DNA of 64,000 bases. It comes from Enterobacter cloacae (GTDB lineage Bacteria; Pseudomonadota; Gammaproteobacteria; Enterobacterales; Enterobacteriaceae). Each line of letters begins with the position of its first letter. Position 1 is the first letter of the stretch. Positions 24,748 to 26,757 of the stretch are shown one piece after another. The stretch covers positions 2,976,001 to 3,040,000 of the forward strand of contig AP022133.1 of NCBI GenBank assembly GCA_014169315.1. The letters are read 5' to 3'. A model generated the notes under the pieces. That model saw only the letters and a program-made list of their open reading frames with translations. It did no database searches and was not told the DNA's origin. The position numbers and the translations under genes were made by a program.

Positions 24748-24768
24748 AAAAAAGCCGGAGATAATCTC
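24748..24768. terminator. Left half of the split metG/yehS bidirectional terminator
   Basis: AAAAAAGCC followed by GGAGATAATCTC (24757-24768). Joined to the right half (26734-26757) it would form one classical hairpin, GCCGGAGA-TAA-TCTCCGGC, with A and T tracts on both sides. In the present sequence this half keeps only a short GAGAT/ATCTC stem and no downstream T tract, so metG termination here is weakened or moved into the element. Confidence 0.75.
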
Positions 24769-24872
24769 TAATGCCGGTTAGTTAAGCGGCACAAAGGCAC
24801 TTTGTTATTTCAGTGGTATCGTTCCGTTCACTCAGACATTCTGCTACCTGCATAATCCGCTGCGGTGAACGT

Positions 24873-24900
24873 GTTAAGGGGGCTATCGCGCCCCCTTAAC
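24873..24900. repeat. End hairpin of the element, left arm
   Basis: GTTAAGGGGGC (24873-24883) and GCCCCCTTAAC (24890-24900) form a perfect 11-bp stem with loop TATCGC. The counterpart in the right arm is at 26624-26648. Confidence 0.85.
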
Positions 24901-24984
24901 AATCCCGGCTCCCGGCAAAGAAAATCGCCGCTGCGCGGTACCCTCAGCTTATTCCTTCCGGCTTCGGGTCGGGCATGAAGTGGT

Positions 24985-25890
24985 CTACTTAATTTGGACA
25001 CGACCTGAGGTTCTTTGTCTTTCCATCTCGGCAGGTGTTAACCCTCCGTTGTTTTTATGCGGCCTTACCCGGTTGTAATACCCACTCAGGTACTGAACCA
25101 CATCCTTCACTGCTTCACTTCTGTTTCGGTAGCCTTCACGTAACAACCATTCCGTTTTAAGACTCCGGAACAGCCTCTCTGCAACGGCATTGTCCCAGCA
25201 GTTTCCTTTGCGACTCATGCTGAGTCTGATGCCGTACAGCTTCGCTATGTCCCTGTATGACATGCTGGCATACTGAGAACCCTGGTCAGAGTGGAACATT
25301 AATCCTTTTGGACGGCCCCGGTTTTCCCAGGCCATTGTAAGGGCATTCTGCGCCAGCTGGCTGTCAGCCACAGACGAGAACGCCCAACCCACCACTTTTC
25401 GCGCGTATAAATCCAGTACCACTGCCAGATACAGCCAGCCCGCTTGTGTTCTGATAAAAGTGATATCTCCACACCACACATTATCCGGTGCATTTACCGT
25501 AAAATTGCGACTGAGATGATTTTCCGCCAGATTAGACTGCCGGTTACACAGGCGATAGCGGTGTTTTCCGGGCTGCCTGCTCACCAGACCGGCTTCTTTC
25601 ATCAGTCGCCCGGCCTTGTAACGCCCAACGTTTTCTCCTTCGCGGCGAAGCAGTAAAGACAACGTTCTTGCTCCGGCTGAGCCCCGCCCAAGACGGTGTA
25701 GCTCGGCCACCCTTCGCTGTAGGGCAATTCGCGTCGTATCCGGTTGTTTCTGGCGTTTGCGATGGTAGTAAACCAGACTCCGGCAAACGCCGAGGACCAC
25801 ACAGAGCTCTTTTACGCTGTATTCCTGGCTCAGGGCGGCGACAAGTTTCAGGGCTTGCTGGCGTCCGACATCAGCAAAGCTGTAGCCTTT
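24985..25890 (-). CDS. IS3-family transposase OrfB (DDE integrase domain)
   Basis: The frame is open from the slippery site at 25887-25893 down to 24985. A possible internal GTG start is at 25800. The integrase catalytic triad is visible: D in [21 protein letters not shown] in [15 protein letters not shown] and E in [20 protein letters not shown]. It is normally made as an OrfAB fusion by -1 frameshifting. Upstream of the possible GTG the frame reads [20 protein letters not shown] without stops, as expected for fusion. Confidence 0.9.
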
Positions 25891-26165
25891 TTTAATATCT
25901 CCTTGTCCCTCTCAAGCCGCTGAACCCGTTCTTCAAGCTGACGAATGTACTGCTGCTCTGGCGTGAGCGGAGGAGCCGGAGAGGGGATGCCCTGACCGGA
26001 TAAAACCAGGCCACCACGTTCAATTTCAAGCTGTCTGACCCAGCGTCTCATGGCCGTGACACCGACATCAGAGGCTTCGCAGGCCTGGCGGAATGAGTAG
26101 CCATGGTCAAGGACCAGCTCAGCGCACTCGCGTTTAAACTCTGGGGTAAATCGGCGTGAATTCAT
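25848..26165 (-). CDS. IS3-family OrfA (helix-turn-helix and leucine-zipper protein)
   Basis: 105 residues from the ATG at 26165; a GTG nine bases upstream is the alternative. The N-terminal helix-turn-helix is [20 protein letters not shown], and the C-terminal coiled coil is [20 protein letters not shown]. The slippery heptamer A AAA AAG (25887-25893 on the minus strand) lies 13 codons before the stop and would shift ribosomes into orfB. Confidence 0.9.
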
Positions 26166-26232
26166 TTTTTGCACCTCATCAGTTATTTAATTTATAACCT
26201 CTGAACGTGTCTAAAACTATTAAACCACTTCA

Positions 26233-26284
26233 GGCATTAGCCTGCATCCCTGCAGGCAATGCCCTCTCGGCGCATCCCTGCGCC
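26233..26284. repeat. Hairpins A and B with hexaloop ATCCCT
   Basis: Hairpin A: 26233-26245 pairs with 26252-26263 (12 bp, one bulged A at 26239) around the loop ATCCCT at 26246-26251. Hairpin B: GGCGC (26269-26273) pairs with GCGCC (26280-26284) around ATCCCT at 26274-26279. The stems differ but the loops are identical. The IS target duplication is the first four bases of hairpin A. Confidence 0.85.
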
Positions 26285-26420
26285 TCGCCCCGGCCTCCAG
26301 GAAACGCTTCGGCGATTTTCAGCCGGACTCACGCTCCCTCAACCTTCTTCATCGCCTGAATGTGGCACGGGTGTTGAGTCCCCGCTGAAATCGGCGAACC
26401 GGAGACCGGATGACAAGGGC

Positions 26421-26531
26421 TGGACGCCAGGGATGGCGGCCAGAGGCGAAACGAGACAGGACAAAATTGCCGGAAGCAATTTTGAACAACGCTTGCGTTG
26501 GCCCCGAAGGGGCGAGTCCCAGGGATGGGAC
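26421..26531. repeat. Hairpins C and D with hexaloop AGGGAT, and further hairpins between them
   Basis: Hairpin C: CGCC (26425-26428) pairs with GGCG (26435-26438), extended past one mismatch by TGG/CCA, around AGGGAT at 26429-26434. Hairpin D: GTCCC (26516-26520) pairs with GGGAC (26527-26531) around AGGGAT at 26521-26526. These loops are exact complements of loops A and B. Between C and D are AAAATTGC/GCAATTTT (26463-26483) and GCCCC-GAA-GGGGC (26501-26513). Confidence 0.85.
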
Positions 26532-26623
26532 GAGTAATCTTGAGTCGAGCCGACCGCAGGCAGCCGGTCGGGAGGTGAGCGCAGTGCGAAGCACCGATTT
26601 CTCTGCGGGGCCGCGGGGATTGG

Positions 26624-26648
26624 CAAGGGGGCCGCGGTGGCCCCCTTG
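26624..26648. repeat. End hairpin of the element, right arm
   Basis: CAAGGGGGCC (26624-26633) and GGCCCCCTTG (26639-26648) form a perfect 10-bp stem with loop GCGGT. It mirrors the left-arm hairpin at 24873-24900. A 7-bp stem CCGACCG/CGGTCGG lies at 26550-26571. Confidence 0.85.
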
Positions 26649-26733
26649 TCCCGTTCACAGGTTGTGAGCGTATTATTTTCTGCGGATAGTAAGGTGAACG
26701 GAATTACCCACCATGCTTAACTGACTGATATCA

Positions 26734-26757
26734 GGAGATAATCTCCGGCTTTTTTTA
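26734..26757. terminator. Right half of the split metG/yehS terminator
   Basis: GGAGATAATCTCCGGC followed by eight T (26734-26757), overlapping the yehS stop. A hairpin GGAGA-TAA-TCTCC with a T tract remains in the plus direction. In the yehS direction only part of the original stem survives. Confidence 0.7.

Follow-up and report, generated by a model that had tools for sequence, protein, structure and literature searches.

Organization of the metG/yehS locus

The window, that is, the whole stretch of 64,000 nucleotides analyzed (positions 2976001–3040000 of a 5.0-Mb genome), carries metG on the plus strand (22704–24746) and yehS on the minus strand (26755–27252), with coordinates taken from the ORF list and gene names from a preliminary description of this DNA. 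Between the two genes, our reading of the sequence places a gene-less element (24769–26733) that measures 704 bp once a nested IS is removed (207 + 497) and that interrupts the metG/yehS terminator, where 12 bp are duplicated. The duplicated GGAGATAATCTC borders the element at 24757–24768 and 26734–26745; the left part of the divided terminator, including the left duplication, covers 24754–24768, and the right duplication is followed by the remaining terminator stem and the T-run (26734–26756).

By comparison with IS4 ends, the element begins with an IS4-type terminal repeat, TAATGCCGGTTAGTTAAGC (24769–24787, plus strand), and finishes with another on the minus strand (26715–26733, reverse complement TGATATCAGTCAGTTAAGC), the two being identical at 14/19 positions. 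The structured core, described here on the plus strand, is divided into a left part that starts at GTTCCGTTCAC and is related to E. coli TRIP1 by alignment (24821–24975), and a right part (26237–26703) that ends with GTGAACGGAA, the partner motif of TTCCGTTCAC. Each arm contains a G5/C5 hairpin, at 24873–24900 on the left (helix 4 of the consensus structure, four pairs changed on both sides) and at ~26622–26650 on the right (helix 23, three pairs changed on both sides). An optional module of ~75–80 bp (26462–26541, plus strand) is absent from many copies. The terminal repeats, paired motifs, and one hairpin per arm had been pointed out in the preliminary description and were found again on re-reading the sequence.

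The nested IS (24976–26232, minus strand), which lies outside the element proper, was assigned to the IS3 family by a family model match and is flanked by a GGCA duplication (24972–24975 and 26233–26236). Its two ORFs (24985–25800 and 25848–26174, both minus) match the NCBIfam IS3 transposase model, the smaller one below the curated cut-off. In line with the preliminary description, the only family-matched ORFs are those of the nested IS; the right arm of the element also has mechanical ORFs of 81–109 aa that may or may not code. A transposase search of the genome gave no IS4 transposase match at the place of the element.

The 3′ end of metG was located in 61/61 genomes of the genus, and the metG/yehS site was readable in 27 of the 29 relatives fetched, the two others (L202 and L212) being excluded as their anchor matched elsewhere. 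In all 27, the hairpin was uninterrupted and had a T-run after it, and ten were exactly GCCGGAGATAATCTCCGGC. The intact metG terminator expected in relatives was thus recovered, and both the sequence and the empty sites bear out the claim of a 704-bp mobile insert dividing the metG/yehS terminator.

A dispersed family with IS4-type ends

In the element's own genome, matches numbered 13 for the left part and 19 for the right part, several of which covered nothing but inner modules; the right part was matched in at least 44 of the 61 genomes of the genus. In an even draw across the family, some part of the element was present in 51/198 genomes and 40/154 genera. We fetched 60 stretches from among the matches listed in the genus search. 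Of 66 stretches examined, both IS4-type ends were found in 29. Of these two-ended copies, 22 had a direct repeat of 10–14 bp with at most one mismatch (perfect in 16), and the inverted ends were near-identical in copies other than that of the window. The proposal that the element is multi-copy is therefore upheld, and the several copies in its own genome, together with the genus-wide matches, rule out a single-copy accident.

The reference IS4 of MG1655 starts with TAATGCCGATCAGTTAAG, has TAATGCCAGTCAGTTAAGC at its other end, and is flanked by a 12-bp duplication, CAGAACCAAGAT. The TAATGCCAGTCAGTTAAGC end was found exactly in several copies of the element. The ends of the element correspond to IS4 ends over ~19 bp, past which no further likeness was seen; since the likeness stops there, shared ends are supported rather than descent from IS4 by deletion. 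No intact IS4 was detected by transposase search in the genome of the window; that genome contains an IS4 relic with an internal deletion and a diverged transposase whose match falls into two pieces. By eye, the relic and the diverged transposase both lie in terminator-like sequence, and they were excluded from the counts below. A genome of another genus (G144) carries five full-length IS4-type copies with a transposase 92% identical, as well as a complete element of 662 bp that is inserted in a terminator and flanked by a 12-bp duplication. The element thus has inverted ends, a target duplication, dispersed copies, and no family-matched transposase of its own, as in MITEs, and its ends are common to an autonomous element of the same or related genomes, as in a MITE of IS4. 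All the defining sequence features of a MITE with IS4 ends are present, with mobilization putative. In one IS4 copy (L062, 91–1516), the right end of IS4 itself can be read as a terminator-like hairpin, GCCAGTCAGTT-AAGC-AACTGACTGGC, followed by TCTTTTT.

Several other observations were made on the copies. In the genome of the window, L034 (2288–2290 kb) has two left ends and L036 (2536–2539 kb) two right ends, as would result from a ~250-kb inversion involving two copies. The IS3-family IS that splits the window copy occupies the center of the core in seven copies from this genome (the window copy, L033–L036, L038, and L039), at more than one nucleotide position and in both orientations, as if aimed at the central hairpins. 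This IS was rejected as the driver of the family, having different ends and 3–4 bp duplications and lying inside the core in several copies. An AT-rich perfect palindrome directly follows the left IS4-type end in L102 (GCAAAATAATGAATTTAAATTCATTATTTTGC), L126, and L150. Genomes G058 and G059 share one insertion, which contains the optional module in L107 and lacks it in L147. Positions 26453–26544 resemble the Rfam family AaHKsRNA22 (33.8 bits for a gathering threshold of 39.8); this was one of two Rfam matches in 24000–27500 of the window, both below gathering, so that no curated RNA family was identified there. The AaHKsRNA22-like module is also present in further intergenic repeats of this genome (L045–L049), with a tandem array in L045.

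Most insertions lie in terminator-like hairpins

To score targets, we required a hairpin (5 bp or longer) whose center fell within the duplication and which had an A- or T-run alongside. By this final score, the reconstructed target was terminator-like at 23/25 distinct insertions of the element and at 16/17 full-length IS4-type elements, compared with 117/40000 random positions and 34/7000 positions located 60–200 nt from the insertions (0.29–0.49%). These proportions support the preliminary claim of a non-autonomous transposon aimed at intrinsic terminators. The score was revised after failures had been seen: a first version, which read one duplication copy only and misjudged stems continuing through A-T, gave 18/25 element sites, 16/17 IS4-type sites, and 64/20000 random positions. 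The revised one accepts any truncated stem and lets either duplication copy pass, and the controls were repeated with it, using one sequence per position.

The 25 element sites are the 29 two-ended copies minus the orthologues L103, L123, L127, and L131 and one of L107/L147, plus L245; in the revised set, L147 replaced its orthologue L107, with its left end shifted by 1 nt. For L145, L158, and L159, where a clean repeat was not found, the duplication was set at 12. The ends were resolved in 17 of the 20 IS4-type loci fetched (L226, L238, and L240 were excluded). The sites failing the revised score were L158 and L159 for the element and L237 for the IS4-type elements, and L153 passed weakly.

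For IS4 in E. coli, 12 loci were fetched from 40 listed of 2739 records (one place per record), and eight of the ten distinct insertions were terminator-like (8/12 of the loci fetched). L272, which fails by one mismatch, was merged with L267 as the same site, and L278 with L274; L275 passes through an A-run only. The terminator sites include tdk/adhE (in both orientations), pdeA/nupC, typA, and rraA/zapB. The two others are bcsG and a site common to MG1655, strain B C2566, and EC21GDE043. That the MG1655 copy is an exception may be why the terminator pattern went overlooked.

Among 46 passing sites (47 minus L147), all pre-selected for a hairpin centered anywhere in the duplication, the center of the duplication coincided with that of the hairpin in 34 and was at most 1 nt away in 41. 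This centering argues that the duplication is placed by the dyad and that its length follows the loop. As full-length IS4-type elements show the same targets, the targeting would most simply be a property of the IS4 transposase. That IS4 copies lie mostly in terminator hairpins suggests that the targets may be found by hairpin shape. At the level of sequence, this apparent terminator targeting, common to IS4 and the element, is the strongest result of the analysis. We found no report of IS4 terminator targeting in the open-access library searched, and older IS4 papers may contain one.

A structured core with covarying pairs

The core is ~548 bp long, has two arms, and is bounded by GTTCCGTTCAC and GTGAACGGAA. 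It was delimited in 44 of the 55 copies tried, and the 24 cores of 545–553 bp were aligned (mean column identity 88%); the remaining ones are ~75 bp longer with the optional module or shortened by deletion. Folding of a single core gave z-scores of −5.5 and −6.9 on the two strands, and column shuffles of the alignment gave −12 (30 shuffles). The consensus structure, which was derived from the same alignment and is therefore favored in these pairing figures, contains 135 pairs and has 98.6% of its cells paired, vs 95.2% with shuffled partners; versions slid along the alignment pair only 38–44%. Covariation was assessed with RNAalifold and pair counts. Pairs changed on both sides numbered 16 vs 13.8 in shuffles (6/500 shuffles reach 16), and cells with double changes 120 vs 41.8 (0/500 reach 120), whereas further pair types were fewer than with shuffled partners (35 vs 39.9). 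By these measures, the pairing is conserved and covarying.

The 63 pairs common to the folds of both strands contain 2 G-U vs 4 A-C cells. These counts indicate no strand preference, as would result from DNA hairpins, template switching, or gene conversion holding the two arms in agreement; the same three processes might cause the scarcity of intermediates between Watson-Crick pairs. The core was more conserved than both flanks in 9/15 orthologous pairs, one of them by only 0.1–0.2 points, while five showed the opposite and one had a single measurable flank, the pairs being non-independent. Some core copies had no recognizable IS4 ends at the threshold used, and some of these copies occupy a shared position in two or three species.

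Predicted effect on termination

The mean computed hairpin energy at 20 of the 25 element sites (L145, L147, L153, L158, and L159 were left out) was −15.6 kcal/mol for the intact terminator vs −4.7 across the right junction and −6.5 across the left one, the latter taken on the other strand; each folded window extended 8 nt beyond the duplication. L119 (−16.0) and L120 (−14.0) were not or hardly weakened at their left junctions. By eye, no T-run follows the G5/C5 hairpins of the core.

Proposed mechanism and alternatives

We consider it very probable that the element is a MITE mobilized in trans by an IS4-subgroup transposase, with its target chosen by the terminator dyad. This reading draws on the IS4-type ends, the duplications, the terminator targets and their dyad centering, the empty sites, the multiple copies, and the likewise targeted IS4-type elements. 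Transposition in the IS4 family proceeds by cut-and-paste joining. The transposase would bind the IS4-type ends of ~19 bp and join them to an intrinsic terminator (A-run, GC-rich stem, short loop, and T-run) chosen by its dyad, usually 3–5 bp on each side of the loop, and repair of the stagger would duplicate 10–14 bp. We infer that mobilization occurs in trans and that the protein may sense a symmetric or extruded hairpin rather than the base sequence.

Untargeted insertion, with copies elsewhere purged by selection and intergenic ones remaining, appears very improbable to us. Terminators are tolerant intergenic places and two E. coli IS4 copies do sit outside them, but positions 60–200 nt away, often also intergenic, score in only 34/7000, and selection would not bring the centers of duplication and dyad to within 1 nt of each other in 41/46 sites, these having been pre-selected for a hairpin centered anywhere in the duplication. 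A group IIC intron or intron remnant would share the habitat at terminators, according to the accessible part of PMC3522654; the direct repeats and inverted IS4-type ends, and the absence of any group II intron model among the Rfam matches to E 1 in 24000–27500 of the window, make this origin hardly credible. A phage piece was also tried and rejected, as the L126 element had no match in 50,697 phage records.

We regard it as possible, though less probable than not, that the core is a functional structured RNA, a mobile non-coding gene. The strong single folds, the 16 pairs changed on both sides with 98.6% of the cells paired, and the greater conservation of the core in 9/15 orthologous pairs are in its favor. 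Against it, the G-U and A-C counts reveal no strand preference, five of the 15 pairs contradict core conservation, and the double-change pairs barely exceed the shuffles, further pair types even falling below them. The preliminary description had also proposed that the element supplies its own termination structures, leaving host transcription undisturbed. Although the core folds strongly on both strands and a T-run or A-run persists outside each junction, the junction hairpins are computed to be much weaker than the intact ones at the 20 sites (−4.7 and −6.5 vs −15.6 kcal/mol, L119 and L120 excepted on the left), and no T-run is visible behind the core hairpins, so we judge this proposal unlikely. 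Protection of host termination by the element is possible and so far unsupported by the computed junction hairpins. Our guess is that the core persists chiefly as fold-forming cargo tolerated between genes, its function being conjectural.

Comparison with known systems

In the parts of PMC2266710 that are accessible, IS4 and the IS4 subgroup have terminal repeats and duplications of ~10–14 bp like the element, and share the terminator targets measured here; the element differs by having no transposase gene and an unrelated interior. The accessible text of that paper on the IS4 family never uses the word “terminator”, Figure 3 aside. Among the literature compared, the nearest precedent for dyad targeting is the IS4-family ISRm22, which lies at the palindrome axis in all 10 copies listed in the available part of PMC1525189. 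There, ISRm22 and other REP-targeting ISs differ in having REP targets and 6-bp repeats, instead of terminators of varied sequence. Group IIC (class C) introns are likewise found at intrinsic terminators, but as described in the sections of PMC3522654 at hand, they are RNA retroelements with insertion sites downstream of the stem-loop, whereas the element has DNA ends, lies inside the hairpin, and is flanked by a duplication. ERIC, RUP, SPRITE, and other bacterial MITEs are also short, gene-less, intergenic, and foldable with inverted ends; ERIC, RUP, and SPRITE have other ends, and the accessible portion of PMC10969869 describes terminator-like sequences within SPRITE and mentions no terminator insertion.

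If the dyad reading is correct, terminators would be places where a DDE transposon can generally land, and the terminator arms, together with the dyad-centered duplication, would yield a model, open to testing, in which a DDE transposase is guided to its target by structure. Terminator targeting would also account for the way in which such elements come to lie between genes, at the cost of terminators that are, as computed, weaker.

Relatives of the core

The preliminary description knew of no published name for the element. We found none for the whole element in the open-access library searched, so this part stands, but one arm relates to TRIP1 (PMC10888264, accessible part). TRIP1a and TRIP1c of MG1655 align with positions 68–241 of the L161 core at 78–79%; for TRIP1a, the alignment covers 172/266 bp at 79%, compared with pieces of only 85 and 33 bp against the IS-split copy of the window. 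Part of the L161 core was matched in 5376/5426 E. coli genomes, in none of them over 80% of the core. In a plasmid collection, 23 records matched, several of them chromosome-sized and none over 80% of the query. Klebsiella variicola has a right half (L244). As far as PMC10888264 is accessible, TRIP1 resembles the element in its strong predicted folding and in the rearrangements caused by both, and differs in its size (146–273 bp) and single arm; IS4 ends were unseen in the E. coli copies inspected, and no transposase is named for TRIP1 in the accessible text. For E. coli TRIP1, the element is a relative that has a plausible way to travel; its large non-coding core, with covarying pairs, is also open to tests of function.

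In another set of copies (class B, L038–L044), part of the core lies between ends like CTGAGGG(A/T)TCCCC, which resemble the IS10 end; the IS10 end sequence used for this comparison matched places annotated as ISVsa5-type transposase. By eye, their 9-bp repeats fall in a REP-like hairpin, CCCTCTCCC-NNN-GGGAGAGGG (L038 and L039, diverged in L041). A broader and more doubtful proposition has two parts: IS4-subgroup transposases would pick terminator dyads over base sequence, and the core would be a large mobile structured nucleic acid carried on unrelated transposon ends (IS4- and IS10-type); because of an action of the folded core at gene 3′ ends, it would be retained even once the transposon ends have decayed. 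An E. coli relative of the class B copies sits between mmuM and tauA (L070).
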